From NCBI RefSeq assembly GCF_900112335.1, contig NZ_FOLG01000001.1, positions 620,001-684,000 on the forward strand: DNA of 64,000 bases. Reading direction: 5' to 3'. Below the pieces are notes generated by a model. The model was given only the letters and a program-made list of their open reading frames with translations, was not told the DNA's origin and searched no databases. The position numbers and the translations under genes are program-made. The stretch's first letter is position 1; each line of letters starts with the position of its first letter. Positions 23,564 through 57,705 of the stretch are shown here, piece after piece. The stretch comes from Tropicimonas isoalkanivorans (lineage in GTDB: Bacteria; Pseudomonadota; Alphaproteobacteria; Rhodobacterales; Rhodobacteraceae).

Positions 23564-24853
23564 TCAGCCCCACTGCCCCGTGCCTTTGCTGTCGACCTCT
23601 GCCTCGGTGCCGGCCTCCTGGGCCGTCTCGATGAACACCTCTTGAGCAACCTCAACCGCAACGGGCGATGCCGTCGGCAGCACCGGCGCGTAGCTGACGG
23701 TTGCATCCACCGGAACCGCTTCGCTCTGCGTCATCCGCCATCCGGCATAGGCCGCGAGCGTGGAACACAAGACGGCGAGGAACAAAAAGAAGCCCTCCGG
23801 CCCGGCAACCCCCATGATCCAGCCGGTGACCAGCGGCCCGGCAACGGCCCCGACGCCGTTGATGAAGACGAGCCCGGCAGACGCCCCTGCCATTTCCTCG
23901 TAATCGAGATGATCGTTCACGTAGGCCAGCAACAGAGCGTAGAGGGGGGTGGCTGCGCCGCCGATGAAAAAAGCCGCTGCGAGAAGCGCGGCGAAGCTTT
24001 GGTCCATGGCCATCGCCAGCGACGAAGCGACGGCTCCCAGAACGGAAATCGCCAGAACCAGCCCGCGGCGATCCACCCGGTCGGACAGCCAGCCAATGGG
24101 ATACTGCATGACCATCCCGCCGAGATAGATGGCGGCGACGAACGCCGAGATCTCTGGCACGGCCATGCCGGCCTGCGCTCCGTAGACCGATGCCATGCCG
24201 TAAAGCGCGGAGAACACGCCACCCAGCAGGAAGATCCCAACGAAGCCGAGTTGCGAGCTTTGCCACAGCCTGCGCAGGCTCATCGGCTTGGAGGTCTCGA
24301 AGGCCGGCGTTGGCTGCACCGCCAGAAGGATCGGCGCGAAGGACACAGAGACCAGCACCGACGGCACGATGAAGAGCGCAAATCCCGACGGGTCCCCGAA
24401 GAGCAACAGCCCCTGGGCCGCAACGAGGCCGGCCATCTGCACGATCAAATAGAGCGACAGTGCCTGGCCACGGCGGTCGTTCGTTACCGCGTTGTTGAGC
24501 CAGCTTTCGGAGGTGACGTAGACCGCGGACAGGCAAAATCCCATCAACATGCGCCCGACCGTCCAGGCCACCGGGTTGGCGACGAGCGGGTAGAGGATCA
24601 GAATCGCCGACACCATGGAACCGAGTGCTGCGAAGACGCGGATATGACCGACCCGCCGGATCAGTTCTGGCGCCATACGGGAGCCGCCCAGAAAGCCGAG
24701 GAAGTAGGCGGACATGACGATGGACATGGAGAAGGTCGAGAACCCCTCGATACTGCCACGAATGCCGAGCAGCGTGGCCTGCACGCCGTTCCCGACCATC
24801 AACAGAAGGATTCCGAACAAGAGGGCCCAGGTCCCCGAGATCACTTTCAGCAT
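23564..24853 (-). CDS. Major facilitator superfamily transporter (YcaD-like)
   Basis: This 429-residue membrane protein has twelve predicted hydrophobic segments and MFS landmarks: an N-terminal helix pair (LLLMVGNGVQATLLGIRG), GRMLMGFCLSAVYVTSESWLN, which resembles the YcaD/UMF1-type drug and metabolite exporters, and a Pro/Val-rich cytoplasmic tail. Substrate is unknown. A GAAGGTG purine stretch precedes the ATG. It probably leads a two-gene unit with DUF924, and its promoter shares the 440-bp region with the acetyltransferase leader. Confidence 0.85.
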   Translation of the reverse strand: MLKVISGTWALLFGILLLMVGNGVQATLLGIRGSIEGFSTFSMSIVMSAYFLGFLGGSRMAPELIRRVGHIRVFAALGSMVSAILILYPLVANPVAWTVGRMLMGFCLSAVYVTSESWLNNAVTNDRRGQALSLYLIVQMAGLVAAQGLLLFGDPSGFALFIVPSVLVSVSFAPILLAVQPTPAFETSKPMSLRRLWQSSQLGFVGIFLLGGVFSALYGMASVYGAQAGMAVPEISAFVAAIYLGGMVMQYPIGWLSDRVDRRGLVLAISVLGAVASSLAMAMDQSFAALLAAAFFIGGAATPLYALLLAYVNDHLDYEEMAGASAGLVFINGVGAVAGPLVTGWIMGVAGPEGFFLFLAVLCSTLAAYAGWRMTQSEAVPVDATVSYAPVLPTASPVAVEVAQEVFIETAQEAGTEAEVDSKGTGQWG

Positions 24854-25127
24854 TCAGCACCTTCTACGGTCCGCACCGCCGCTCCAGCCGAGTCGGCATT
24901 ATCGCGGCCCGCTTTAAAACGAGGCGGCGCTCGGACGAAAGGGAAAGCTTTGCCGCGACGCGGCAACCCACATGCGTGCTGGCGCCGCACCGCCGCCTCG
25001 AGCGGCCACACGTCCCTTTGGCGTCGCGCTGAACGCGGTTTCGGCGCGACGTGGGCGCCTGCGGCGGCATTCCGCCAATGACACGGGCGCCACACCGGAA
25101 CGATTTCGTTTGACGGAGGCACGCGCA
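24854..25127. other. Intergenic region upstream of MFS gene and aromatic leader
   Basis: No gene is supported here. It must hold the promoters of the leftward MFS gene and of the rightward leader-acetyltransferase unit, but I could not place convincing -35/-10 boxes. GGAGG at 25115-25119 is the ribosome site for the leader peptide. Confidence 0.5.
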
Positions 25128-25193
25128 TTGCGCAGAACTGCCGCCATGACACGCGTCGCCGCCTCCAGCTTTTATTGGACCCGCACCACATAG
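25128..25193 (+). CDS. Leader peptide with consecutive Phe-Tyr-Trp codons
   Basis: A 21-codon frame runs from TTG at 25128 (GGAGG at 25115-25119, 8-nt spacing) to TAG at 25191-25193; a shorter version begins at ATG 25146 but has no ribosome site. It reads MTRVAASSFYWTRTT at its C-terminus, with TTT-TAT-TGG at 25170-25178. Three different aromatic codons in a row, 12 codons before an intrinsic terminator, are the hallmark of a translation-coupled attenuator. Such leaders normally control aromatic amino acid biosynthesis; here the next gene is a GNAT acetyltransferase. The peptide itself need not have a function. Confidence 0.7.
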   Translation: MRRTAAMTRVAASSFYWTRTT

Positions 25194-25224
25194 GCGCGGC
25201 CGGTGATGTCATTCCACACACACG

Positions 25225-25248
25225 AAAGCCGCCACGAGCGGCTTTTTT
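25225..25248 (+). terminator. Attenuator terminator of the aromatic leader
   Basis: The stem AAAGCCGC / GCGGCTTT (25225-25232 and 25238-25245) has a CACGA loop and runs into TTTTTT. It is the only structure in the window combining a stem and full U-tract in front of a gene, 45 nt upstream of the acetyltransferase. GCGGC at 25196-25200 can pair either with GCCGC in the leader (25158-25162) or with the terminator's 5' arm (25228-25232), giving terminator and antiterminator states. Confidence 0.8.
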
Positions 25249-25293
25249 CATCTTCGGCGCTTCGTGGCGGCAGCCACATGAGGAGACTGGAAG

Positions 25294-25899: not shown

Positions 25900-26946
25900 T
25901 CAGGGCAGCAAGAGAGACGCGTCGCCGTAGGAAAAGAAGCGATACCGCTGAGCGACAGCGTGGGCGTAGACCTGCATCATCCGCTCCCGCCCCATGAGTG
26001 CGGAGACGAGCATCATCAGGGTGGATTTCGGCAAGTGAAAATTCGTCATCAGCGCATCGGTGGCCCGGAACCGATGGCCGGGGCGGATGAAAATGTCGGT
26101 GTCCCCCCGGAAGGCGGCCAGTCCGTCATCGGTCGCGGCCGTTTCCAGCAGGCGGCAGGCGGTGGTGCCGACGGGGATGATGCGCCCGCCTGCAGCGCGG
26201 GTGGCGTTGACCTCGTCCGCGGCCTGTTCGGAGACCTCGCCCCACTCCGCGTGCATCCGGTGGCGGCTGACATCATCAGTCTTGACCGGCAGGAACGTTC
26301 CCGCGCCCACGTGGAGGGTGACCTCGGTGAAGTCCACGCCCATTTCAGCGATGCGTTGCAGAAGCGGCCGGTCGAAATGCAGGCTCGCGGTCGGCGCGGC
26401 GACGGCGCCGGAGTGGCGGGCGAAGACGGTCTGGTAGTCCGTCCGGTCTCGGTCGTCGGCGGGGCGGCGGGCGGAGATGTAGGGCGGCAGGGGCATTGCC
26501 CCGGCGGACTCCAGCGCCGCCTGGAACGCATCCCCCTCGAGCGCGAAGGCGAGTGCAAGCTGCCCTTCCGCGCGGGACAGGACGCGCGCCGAGAAGCCGG
26601 GGCCGAAGTGGATCTCCTCGCCGTCCCGCACCTTTTTGGCGGGCTTGGCGAGCGCAGACCATGTGCCGTCACTCCGAGGCTCCAGCAGAGTGATCTCGAT
26701 ACGGGCCTCGGTTTCGCCCTCCACCCCTGCCCTTCGCCGAACGCCGGACAGGCGCGCGGGGATCACGCGGGTGTTGTTCAGCACGAGCCTGTCGCCGGGG
26801 CGCAGGAAGTCCGGCAGGTCGCGCACGTGGGCGTCCGTGAGCCGGTCCGGCCGCGCGACGAGAAGGCGGGCGGAGCTGCGCGGGCTGGCCGGGCGGGTGG
26901 CGATCAGTTCATCCGGGAGGGCGAAGTCGAAGTCCGAAAGGCGCAT
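25900..26946 (-). CDS. queA: tRNA preQ1(34) S-adenosylmethionine ribosyltransferase-isomerase
   Basis: QueA moves the ribosyl part of SAM onto preQ1 in tRNA, making epoxyqueuosine in the wobble position. The protein starts at the ATG at 26946 ([20 protein letters not shown], the family N-terminus) with a GGGGGGTGAG ribosome site. A GTG three codons upstream would overlap the previous stop. Diagnostic blocks are [35 protein letters not shown] and [12 protein letters not shown]. It directly follows the AsmA-like gene and is probably co-transcribed. Confidence 0.95.
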
Positions 26947-26951
26947 GCGGC

Positions 26952-29900
26952 TCACCCCCCGTTGCGAGGCTGCGGGGGCGGGGCGCGGAAGATCTCGCGG
27001 AACATGCCCGGTGTCAGCATGGAGAGCGGGTTCACCTCGACGGAGGGATCGTCGGAGGAGCCGCGCATCCGGTAGGTCACGCCGAACAGCCCCTCGCCCC
27101 GGCGGGTGAAGATGGAGCCGATGGAATTGACCATGTAGATCGGGGAGAACACGCCCTGCATGTCCAACCGGTCGCCCACCATGTCGTAGACCCCTTCCAT
27201 CGTGATGCCGAGCGAGGGCCCGACGCCGGAGGAGCGTGTGACCTGCAGGTAGCGCGGCGTCAAGCGGAAGGCGGCCTGGATATTGCTGAAGACGATGCCG
27301 GAGCCGCTCAACTCGTCCAGCAGACCCACGACCGAGATTGCGTTGGCAAGCGCCGCGATGCCGGATGCGCCGCGCAGGCGGACGTTTTCGACCTTGAGCT
27401 GGCCATCATACGCGCCCTCCTCACCGGTCGGTTGGAGCACGAGCGAGAGCGTGCCACCCTCGGCCTTGCGGAAGAAGCCGGCTGCCTTGAACACGGCGCC
27501 GGCGTTGTCGGAGCGAATGCTGACGGCGGCCCCCCCGGACTGTCCGGGCGCCAGGGATCCGCTCACGGGCGCCTGCCCATTTACGCGGCCGGTGAAGTTT
27601 CCCGCCGGTCCGCTGCCGGGAACGATGTCGCCGCGGAAGGGGGCGAGCGACAGGTTGTCGGTGACCTGAAGGCGGTCGAGAGACAGGGTGATTGGCCCGC
27701 TGGCCCCGCCACCGCCGCCACCGCCCCCGCTCCCGCCGCCGAATGGCGCACGGCGCAGGTCGAGCTGGCCGCCGGAGACAGCGATCGCCGGCGTGCGCCC
27801 CGCGCCTCGGCCGGTGAGGGTGACGGGCGCGTCGAGCCAGCCGGCGAGCGACAGCCTGTCGAACCGGGCCCGTTCGAGCGCACCCTCCGGGGTGACCGAG
27901 ACGGCGCCGGAAGCGGAGAGGCCTGAGGCCTCGATTTCCAAAACCGTCACTTCTGGCGGCTGCCCCAGGCGACCGGCGACGCGCAGGCGCCCCTCGGAGG
28001 CCGCGCGTTTGGACCAGGACAGTGTGGGCAGGGAGAGTCCGACACCGTTGAGCGCCGACGTCAGGCTGAACGTCGGCGGCGCCCCTTGCGGCAACTCAAC
28101 CCTGAACTGGGCCGGGCCGGCGCCAGTGACGCTGTTGTCCGGCAGGCCGATGCCGAAGGTTGAGACGAATTTCTCGCCGATCCGAACCGTGCCCTCCACG
28201 GCCGGGGCCTGCTCCTGCCCCGCGGGTCCGAGTGGCAGGGTGAAGGTGCCGTCGGCCGGCACGCCGTCCAGTTCGGCGGCACCTGCCACGGTCAGCGCTT
28301 CCGGCGTGGCGTGCAGGTCCAGCCGGTCCGCCGTCAGGCGCCGGTTCGGAACGACCTTGTCGGACGCCGCCCCCATGGCTTCTCCGGCAATGTCGAAATC
28401 AACATCGCTGCCGGTGAGCTTCGGGCGGATCGGGAAGGCGATGCGTCCCTGAACGGACGCCTGCCCCGTGGCGAGGTCCACCGGCTGGCCAGCTTTTTCC
28501 AGAAACCGGAAGGGCTCCTGATCGAGCAGCGACAGTCCGGCGACCACCGGAGAGGTGGAGCGCCAGAGGATCTCGGCGACCTTCGGCTCGGCCTTCAGGT
28601 CTCCGATCTTGAACACCGACCCGGCGATGTCGACCGCGCCGCCCTCCGGCGGCACGATCCGGCCCGCGTCGAGCGAGAGCGAAAAGACGTCGCGCCCGAG
28701 CGACGCGTAGCCGGTTGCCGCCTCGATCGGCGGCAGACTTTGCAAAGGGCGTATCTGGCTGTCGCGGAACTCGAAAGTGAGGGAGGCGTCGGGTCTTTGG
28801 CCTTGATCGAACCGCAGACCGGCATTGGCGTCGAACAAGGTGCCAGCACTCAGGCGGGTCTCGATCCACTCGCGCGTACGCGGGACAAGCTGCAGCGGCC
28901 ACAGGGAGAACAGCCGGCCGGCCTCGATTTCGTCCAAGCCAATGTCGAGTGCCACGTGCCATCCGGTCTGGTCGGCAGTGATCCGCCCCGAGGTCTCCAA
29001 CCGGCTCGCAGCGGACCCGTCATTCTGGGGTGTCGTCAGGACGAACTGGCCGATGCGAGCCACGAAAGGGGCAAACTCCACCTTGATATCGAGAAAGCCT
29101 GTCTCGAAGACGGCCGGGCCAGGCAGAAGGCCCGGCGGATCGAGCGTGACGTCGGAGAAGCTGAGTTGCCCGACGATGGCGGTCGGCCATCCGGTATCCA
29201 ACCCCTCGAGGTAGGCATGACCGACGGCGGCAAAAGTGCCGTCCGGCGACCGGAGTTCGAGCTCGTCGAAGCGCAGGCGGGCATCCTCCGGCTCATAGCT
29301 GAAGTAGGCCCGCGCGCCGTCGAACGGAACTGGGCGGGCCGCGCGTTCCGGCTGGAACACCCCCTCGCCGATTTCCAGGGTGCCATTGAGCGTCTCCATG
29401 CGGTCGGATTCGTCCAGAGCAGCAATCAGGGCGCCCGAGACCCGCGCGTCCAGCGGCTCCAGCCAAGACAGCGCCGGCCCTTGGGACGCGATTTCCCGAG
29501 CCGCGACCCCGTCGACGAGGGCGGAGAACTGCGCCGGCGATCCAGCCTCTGTCCCGAGGGCCAGGCGGAGCGCGACGGTTGCGGTGGGCGTCTCGGTCCC
29601 CGGATCGGCATCGCCTTCGGGCAGCGTCAGATCCACCGACAGCGAGAGCGTGTCATCGTCCCTGACCAGTGCAAGCGCCCCGTCCTCCACCCGCCAGACC
29701 TTGTCCGCGCGCTGGTCCTCGAAGTGCATGTCGAGCCCCTGAACGTCGATCCTGCGGATCGGTTGCAGCCCGGGAAGGTCGAAGGTGTCCCGTACAACGG
29801 CGATCGCCTGCTCGACCGAGCCGAGACGTGCAGGCGCCATGCCGTTGCCGAAACCGAGGTCCAGCGTGCCGTCGGGCTTGCGCCGGAGCCGGACAGTCGC

Positions 29901-53094: not shown

Positions 53095-53171
53095 TGGCGC
53101 GGTTGACGGGGCTCGAACCCGCGACCTCCGGCGTGACAGGCCGGCACTCTAACCAACTGAGCTACAACCGC
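53095..53171 (-). tRNA. tRNA-Asp(GTC), copy 2
   Basis: A full cloverleaf reads on the minus strand: acceptor GCGGTTG / CAACCGC, T-loop GGTTCGAGCCC, anticodon loop CTGTCAC with anticodon GTC, discriminator G, and encoded CCA (53095-53097). It is identical to the copy at 53259-53335 and lies 87 nt downstream of it, so both are probably processed from one transcript. Confidence 0.95.
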
Positions 53172-53258: not shown

Positions 53259-53335
53259 TGGCGCGGTTGACGGGGCTCGAACCCGCGACCTCCGGCGTGA
53301 CAGGCCGGCACTCTAACCAACTGAGCTACAACCGC
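53259..53335 (-). tRNA. tRNA-Asp(GTC), copy 1
   Basis: Same 77-nt sequence as the neighbouring copy, with anticodon GTC and encoded CCA. It is the promoter-proximal copy: a strong -35/-10 pair lies 45-73 nt upstream. Confidence 0.95.
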
Positions 53336-57631: not shown

Positions 57632-57705
57632 GGCGAGTTGGCGGAGTGGTGACGCAGCGGATTGCAAATCCGTGTACACCGGTTCGATTCCGGTACTCGC
57701 CTCCA
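57632..57705 (+). tRNA. tRNA-Cys(GCA), prophage integration target
   Basis: The 74-nt cloverleaf has acceptor GGCGAGT / ACTCGCC, anticodon loop TTGCAAA with anticodon GCA, T-arm CCGGTTCGATTCCGG and encoded CCA. The integrase gene lies 68 nt beyond its 3' end, the classic arrangement of a tRNA attachment site. Confidence 0.95.
57680..57705 (+). other. Candidate attL core at the tRNA-Cys 3' end
   Basis: Tyrosine integrases of this type usually cross over in the T-arm/acceptor part of the tRNA, leaving the gene intact. The matching attR copy would lie outside the window, so the core boundaries are inferred. Two TTGAAACA direct repeats (57753-57760, 57765-57772) just beyond could be integrase arm sites. 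Confidence 0.5.

Follow-up and report, generated by a model that had tools for sequence, protein, structure and literature searches.

A putative tyrosine-codon attenuator in front of a stand-alone GNAT acetyltransferase gene in Rhodobacteraceae

In the window, by which we mean the whole 64,000-nucleotide stretch of Tropicimonas isoalkanivorans DNA that was analysed, a short leader ORF with a Tyr codon and an intrinsic terminator precede a stand-alone acetyltransferase gene of the GNAT type, and we consider it likely that this element is a ribosome-mediated transcription attenuator which reads the charging of tRNA-Tyr. The comparison with other genomes supports the leader, the Tyr codon and its position, the terminator, the complementarities between RNA segments and the promoter spacing, and we infer stalling, antitermination, a leaderless start and the role of an additional helix, 3:5. 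An earlier note on this DNA had read the region as an attenuator controlling a lone GNAT gene, with induction by a shortage of charged aromatic tRNAs. Conservation across genera and in two orders supports the attenuation, and the sensing of a shortage is retained but narrowed, probably to tRNA-Tyr.

Table 1 Features of the putative attenuator and of the gene behind it.
Feature	Position in the window	Strand	Basis
Predicted -35 box, TTGACG	25110..25115	+	TTGAC spacing across leaders
Leader ORF MTRVAASSFYWTRTT, 15 codons, ATG to TAG	25146..25193	+	ORF listing and comparison with relatives
Hairpin 1:2, CCGCACC (25181-25187) with GGCGCGG (25193-25199)	25181..25199	+	Minimum-energy fold; 6/7 positions paired
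Segment 2, GCGGCC, partner of segment 3 in the putative antiterminator 2:3	25196..25201	+	94.4% of cells paired
Intrinsic terminator 3:4, AAAGCCGC-CACGA-GCGGCTTTTTT	25225..25248	+	Letters, fold, same-genus pairing
Segment 5, TTCGTGGCGGC, complement of the terminator 5' arm plus loop (helix 3:5)	25261..25271	+	Pairing, permutation
Shine-Dalgarno-like GAGGAG of the GNAT gene	25280..25285	+	Sequence
Stand-alone GNAT acetyltransferase, 168 aa	25294..25800	+	Pfam, PDB profile, AlphaFold fold

Leader, promoter and terminator in the window

The leader contains the consecutive codons TTT-TAT-TGG (25170-25178) described in the earlier note, with the Tyr codon at 25173-25175 and the TAG stop at 25191-25193. 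The Tyr codon is separated from the stop by five codons and TGG by four, not by the ten which had been counted. The leader had also been read as 21 codons long, starting from a TTG at 25128 behind a ribosome site GGAGG. We rejected this form, as neither element is conserved in same-genus relatives: an ATG equivalent to 25146, opening 15 codons, is found in seven of the eight, and none of the eight has GGAGG in the 60 nt 5' of the start (an AGGAG occurs within this distance in one of them, G002). Two in-frame ATGs in G006 give a leader of either 15 or 17 codons, and the TTGAC spacing of this genome fits the first of them.

Within the genus, TTGAC lies 35-36 nt 5' of the ATG (G003 has TAGAC instead), and in 25 of 35 leaders the motif starts 35 or 36 nt ahead of the leader start. 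This spacing argues that the leader ORF opens the transcript, so that the window leader is probably leaderless and the first thing on its mRNA. From the -35 box and a weak -10-like sequence, CAGAAC at 25133-25138, the transcript would be predicted to start at about 25145/25146. The earlier note had allowed a GCGGC at 25196-25200 to pair with either a leader GCCGC (25140-25144) or the terminator arm. The GCGGC is present and can pair with segment 3, but the position of the -35 box implies that the leader GCCGC is probably upstream of the transcript start.

The rho-independent terminator which had been placed after the leader was found there, its stem formed by GCCGC (25228-25232) and GCGGC (25238-25242) with A/U flanks and followed by a U-run at 25243-25248. 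The fold of the region is more stable than that of most shuffles, with z -2.17 and 4 of 200 shuffles equally good. Scanned against Rfam at gathering scores, the window returned no T-box, only three tRNAs, and no Rfam family matched 25110-25271 at these scores. The window holds two tandem tRNA-Asp(gtc) genes on the minus strand (53095-53171 and 53259-53335) and a tRNA-Cys (57632-57705).

Conservation of the leader and of its Tyr codon

Orthologues were sought with a profile of ten GNATs against 345 genomes of the family, 60 of which matched at E<=1e-18. Selection by score gave 39 genomes, to which seven further members of the genus were added, making 46 examined; the lower-scoring matches L110 and L112-L115 were left out as paralogues, and the remaining family matches below E=1e-25 were outside the reading. 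One of those left out, L113 (G229), stands beside G354 and G357 in the GNAT tree and has no strict leader; it may belong to the orthologues, in which case the strict count given below becomes 28 of 47.

In all nine same-genus genomes the orthologue is present and is preceded by a leader and a U-run terminator, and eight of the nine leaders read FYW, the ninth (G006) having RWFYRRYS. Inspection by eye found leaders before 35 of the 46 orthologues; all 35 contain Tyr, 31 Phe and 18 Trp, and the five-codon spacing is seen in 25 of them. Because these were chosen with the aromatic codons in view, the count to trust is that of a strict, codon-blind scan for TTGAC, 29-32 nt, ATG and an ORF 7-30 codons long, confined to the 260 nt upstream of the gene. 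The scan found a leader before 28 of the 46 orthologues, 8 in the window's genus and 20 in 20 other genera, against a mean of 0.22 and a maximum of 2 in 200 dinucleotide shuffles. Tyr is present in all 28 strict leaders, Phe in 25 and Trp in 14, so that, of the three FYW codons whose conservation the earlier note had proposed to check, Tyr is conserved while Phe and Trp are dispensable. Exactly five codons run from Tyr to the stop in 22 of the 28, and the residues beside Tyr vary. Exceptions to the spacing include G086, where the stop directly follows Tyr, G219 (8 codons) and G271 (13 codons). In G086 (L076) the leader, MINALKIARY, ends at Tyr, and the sequence past its stop still looks like the usual end of a leader. 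Most leaders carry a single Tyr; classical attenuator leaders have runs of the sensed codon.

These counts bear on an alternative which we regard as distinctly unlikely, namely that the element senses Phe, Tyr and Trp together or mainly Phe. It would account for the consecutive F-Y-W of the window and of seven other same-genus leaders, the W-F-Y of G006 and the presence of Phe in 25 of the 28 strict leaders, and it has a precedent in AroR of Corynebacterium glutamicum, where, according to the available part of PMC11802643 (citing Neshat et al. 2014), ribosome stalling on a leader with Phe-Tyr-Phe answers Phe only. A Tyr codon by itself is therefore no proof of tyrosine sensing, and our confidence in a tyrosine attenuator is slightly lowered. 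Nevertheless, Trp is missing from 14 of the 28 strict leaders and Phe from three but Tyr from none, it is Tyr that keeps its distance to the stop among variable neighbours, and Tyr is the sole aromatic residue in the leaders of G101, G327 and G086. General aromatic sensing was rejected as first choice on the strict-scan counts of Tyr, Phe and Trp.

The leader is not universal: 11 of the 46 orthologues lack one by eye and 18 lack one in the strict scan. A search, as the earlier note had proposed, for orthologues without the leader or the FYW codons did not refute attenuation. In a quickly built tree with one paralogue as root, in which the distribution of leaders was judged by eye, 8 of the 11 leader-less orthologues fall among leader-bearing ones and three (G288, G014 and G341) lie near the base. 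Near a weak hairpin, the leader-less orthologue of G339 has a mini-ORF that starts with GTG and contains no Tyr. A U-run terminator follows the leader in 22 of the 46 orthologues, and 13 of the 35 leaders found by eye have no clear U-run. At L079, L082, L099 and L180 a Tyr mini-ORF and a post-leader hairpin occur without a U-run, so that these loci may be controlled at translation or by Rho. Leader and GNAT remain joined where the neighbours differ, and within flanks of about 1.5 kb no operon partner is conserved beyond clade-wise synteny.

The same leader build also occurs in front of other genes. Two RNA models, R1 and R2, were searched over the 345 genomes. R1 gave 30 matches outside the genus, and the 15 that were read comprised 9 real and 6 chance matches. 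The 21 matches of R2 at E<1e-6 lay before 13 GNAT genes, 7 trpS genes and 1 prephenate-dehydrogenase-like gene; 17 of them belonged to the training set of R2 and the four new ones were trpS. Among weaker matches, six new loci were read, of which five were not leaders and one was an eighth trpS leader (R2 E 2.6e-5). All eight trpS leaders found have Trp-Trp and none has Tyr, with the identity of trpS resting on a family search for L053 and on recognition by eye for the other seven. They combine a promoter-spaced mini-ORF with a terminator and come from eight genera (L047, L053, L057, L120, L123, L124, L125 and L127), the matches beginning at about 1501 in these loci.

The prephenate-dehydrogenase-like gene has seven close homologues among 120 genomes, six of them with a leader; counting the gene of G328, a leader precedes seven of eight, and all seven leaders have Tyr-Tyr (L046, L142, L143, L144, L145, L147 and L148; the homologue L146 has none). 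PF02153 was matched by L046 and L142, and L046 falls below the NCBIfam cut-offs. These eight genomes and the 39 GNAT holders do not overlap, which is not significant given such small numbers. Tyr-Tyr before this gene and Trp-Trp before trpS indicate that the leader codons follow the pathway. Taken together with the Tyr in every strict leader, this makes tyrosine, not aromatic amino acids generally, the probable signal. No Tyr leader was found before tyrS in the nine same-genus genomes, nor before the housekeeping-type prephenate dehydrogenase in seven examined of many weaker matches; one of these, L152, has a chance mini-ORF without Tyr.

Outside the family, plasmid records gave seven GNAT matches at E<=1e-15, of which five were read; two more Sinorhizobium records, of nearly the same DNA, were outside these five. 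In the Hyphomicrobiales, Sinorhizobium meliloti Ak57 and Sinorhizobium sp. K101 have the leader MIKNAPISSVYFWLFR and Shinella the leader MIKSTHIAATYFWLFR, each with a terminator before the GNAT. A Paracoccus marcusii plasmid (Rhodobacterales) has the leader MCMNAASIVNYYRRLN without a U-run, and the GNAT match of Methylobacterium aquaticum has no promoter-spaced leader. The leader-GNAT unit was found once on a 96-kb plasmid. In 240 genomes of the class, five distant homologues of other families were found at E<=1e-25; no promoter-spaced leader was found before these or before the homologue of Roseobacter insulae, which is 41% identical to the window GNAT. The Ak57 record (L178, CP090106.1) is labelled "pSymB" and measures 3.72 Mb, compared with 1.68 Mb for pSymB of strain 2011 in the available part of PMC10117765, and may be a mislabelled chromosome.

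RNA pairings and the proposed switch

Across the nine same-genus sequences, the proportion of cells paired was 88.9% for 1:2, 90.3% for 3:4, 94.4% for 2:3 and 97.6% for 3:5, against at most 71.1% for slid partners. Two-sided changes within the genus affect one pair in 3:4 and one in 3:5, and none in 1:2 or 2:3; helix 3:5 showed no excess over column shuffles within the genus (207 of 500 were as high). Whether segments prefer their own partners was asked in 15 genomes with a terminator, one from each genus except the window's genus, which supplied two. Segment 5 paired with its own segment 3 plus loop at -17.2 kcal/mol, against -14.0 kcal/mol with those of other genomes (permutation p=5e-5), whereas 2:3 did not favour its own partners (-13.0 and -12.5 for own and other, p=0.17). 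In a wider test, made earlier on 24 loci, p was 1.5e-4 for 3:5 and 0.39 for 2:3. Both pairings are stronger than those of letter-shuffled segments: the mean for 2:3 was -13.4 against -9.2 (p<0.05 in 11 of 22 loci) and that for 3:5 -19.2 against -12.1 (p<0.05 in 16 of 22). Of the covariation which the earlier note had suggested looking for, we saw none in the putative antiterminator 2:3 and, within the genus, one pair with two-sided change in the terminator 3:4.

The switch that we propose takes its stalled-ribosome geometry from the textbook trp attenuator. The transcript would start at or beside the leader ATG. While Tyr-tRNA is plentiful, the ribosome would reach the stop codon and cover segment 2, the terminator 3:4 would form and transcription would end at the U-run. 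If Tyr-tRNA became scarce, the ribosome would halt on the Tyr codon, five codons before the stop and over the start of hairpin 1:2, and by opening this hairpin would let segment 2 pair with segment 3, thereby blocking the terminator and allowing the GNAT gene to be transcribed. In the read-through mRNA, segment 3 and the terminator loop could pair with segment 5, just 5' of the GNAT ribosome site; this helix 3:5, possible only in read-through RNA, may adjust translation or make the mRNA more stable.

The behaviour of helix 3:5 raises a second possibility, which we consider rather unlikely: that the switch is mainly translational, with 3:5 forming just 5' of the GNAT ribosome site when the ribosome does not stall, and termination being secondary. 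Of the two pairings tested, 3:5 is the one that is species-specific, and some loci without a U-run (G246, G342 and Paracoccus L180) keep the segment-5 complement as judged by eye, duplex energies having been computed for G246 and G342. Against this, the U-run terminator is kept in 22 of the 46 orthologues, and segment 5 is made only once the terminator has been passed.

The acetyltransferase and known systems

The GNAT matches Pfam Acetyltransf_1 with E=3.6e-16 and 59.9 bits (gathering score 20.7), its PDB profile matches are 2fe7, 12jc and 2bei, and an AlphaFold model built from two sequences (mean pLDDT 79.9) matches the GNAT fold. In sequence profile and fold it resembles thialysine/diamine acetyltransferases, to which the three best profile matches belong (2fe7 ranks 2 and 2bei 7 by fold), but it has an HHGD stretch and a LHHLFV strand where those enzymes have YE and LEDLYV. 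H35-G36-D37 and R48-D49 are invariant in ten aligned GNATs. The top NCBIfam match is HaaN (NF041716), a RiPP N-acetyltransferase, with E=4.2e-13. Together with the short, aromatic-containing peptides, this match could suggest that the leader peptide is itself the product, a bioactive or RiPP-like peptide acetylated by the GNAT, an idea to which we give hardly any weight. The 49.5 bits of the HaaN match compare with a cut-off of 250 and indicate general GNAT likeness only, the leaders diverge widely except in Tyr and its distance to the stop, and in the same-genus set the leader stop codon overlaps hairpin 1:2. The peptide was rejected on the HaaN score and the leader divergence.

The GNAT gene is flanked by two minus-strand genes, upstream (23564-24853) by what we take to be an MFS-transporter-like gene and downstream (25900-26955) by a presumed queA-like gene. 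The latter adjoins the GNAT in the window and in G007 (L006) and was not noticed at other loci. Queuosine is a modification of tRNA-Tyr. The Tyr codon TAT makes up 36 of 47 Tyr codons in leaders and 50 of 115 in GNAT genes, and the Phe codon TTT 29 of 39 and 74 of 178, respectively; a queuosine link was rejected, as the preference for TAT is matched by that for TTT and is not specific to Tyr.

The unit occurs in 39 of the 345 family genomes. This patchiness, together with the proposed induction by a shortage of Tyr-tRNA, suggests an answer to a tyrosine-linked poison and not a core pathway. As a tentative but preferred role, the GNAT might counter, by acetylation, an agent that lowers Tyr-tRNA, such as D-tyrosine, an analogue of tyrosine or a nucleotide-like compound that inhibits tyrosyl-tRNA synthetase. 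The broader substrate range suggested in the earlier note, an aromatic amino acid, an analogue or an antibiotic, is also possible. It is possible, if speculative, that the Tyr-codon attenuator drives an inducible detoxification, in which compounds that block Tyr-tRNA charging or deplete Tyr-tRNA (candidates being tyrosine analogues, D-tyrosine and aminoacyl-nucleotide inhibitors of tyrosyl-tRNA synthetase) are sensed via the ribosome and removed by acetylation, and that the leader-GNAT unit, being patchy, independent of its neighbours and found once on a small plasmid, is like a resistance cassette. A GNAT-related enzyme which N-acylates D-Phe, D-Tyr or D-Trp is described in the available part of PMC8762209, and could suggest that the GNAT acts as a backup for D-Tyr-tRNA deacylase (Dtd) where a genome has no dtd. 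We regard this as very improbable and rejected the GNAT as a replacement for Dtd, since dtd is present in all 39 GNAT holders, compared with 261 of 306 other family genomes (Fisher p=0.0046, uncorrected for phylogeny). D-Tyr as an added substrate of the GNAT is possible.

If a tyrosine attenuator does control this gene, an anonymous acetyltransferase family gains a physiological signal and the search for its substrate is narrowed to tyrosine-linked compounds, a question testable in Sinorhizobium. One leaderless attenuator build would also serve both Tyr and Trp genes in these bacteria. The proposed logic has a parallel in the antibiotic-resistant trpS of Streptomyces, for which Vecchione and Sello in 2010 reportedly described a ribosome-mediated attenuator in connection with indolmycin. 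There, as proposed here, a shortage of one charged tRNA is said to induce a protective gene, the difference being a resistant synthetase and Trp codons in place of an acetyltransferase and Tyr codons.

Control by tyrosine has been ascribed to T-boxes in the accessible part of PMC1262725, and within our partial coverage of the literature none of the ribosome-mediated attenuators that we found has been shown to sense tyrosine. AroR comes closest; in the available text of PMC11802643 its operon is biosynthetic (aroF) and responds to Phe instead of Tyr, whereas Tyr is invariant here and the gene encodes an acetyltransferase. The uORFC-8-2 motif of Rhodobacterales cysS, presumed to act by ribosome-mediated attenuation in the available part of PMC8632094, comes from the window's own taxonomic order and shares a uORF with regulatory codons, a stem containing these codons and a U-run terminator; its codons are Cys in tandem and its gene encodes a tRNA synthetase, where the window has Tyr, an acetyltransferase and the conserved helix 3:5. 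In the alphaproteobacterium Caulobacter crescentus a small leader CDS lies upstream of trpS, as in the trpS leaders found here, and the accessible part of PMC4117421 concerns no acetyltransferase. Finally, rnTrpL/peTrpL of Sinorhizobium meliloti is likewise an alphaproteobacterial attenuator, with an RNA that begins at the ATG of a 14-codon leader, and differs from the window element in its Trp codons and its biosynthetic operon, as far as the available parts of PMC7298713 and PMC10117765 describe it.
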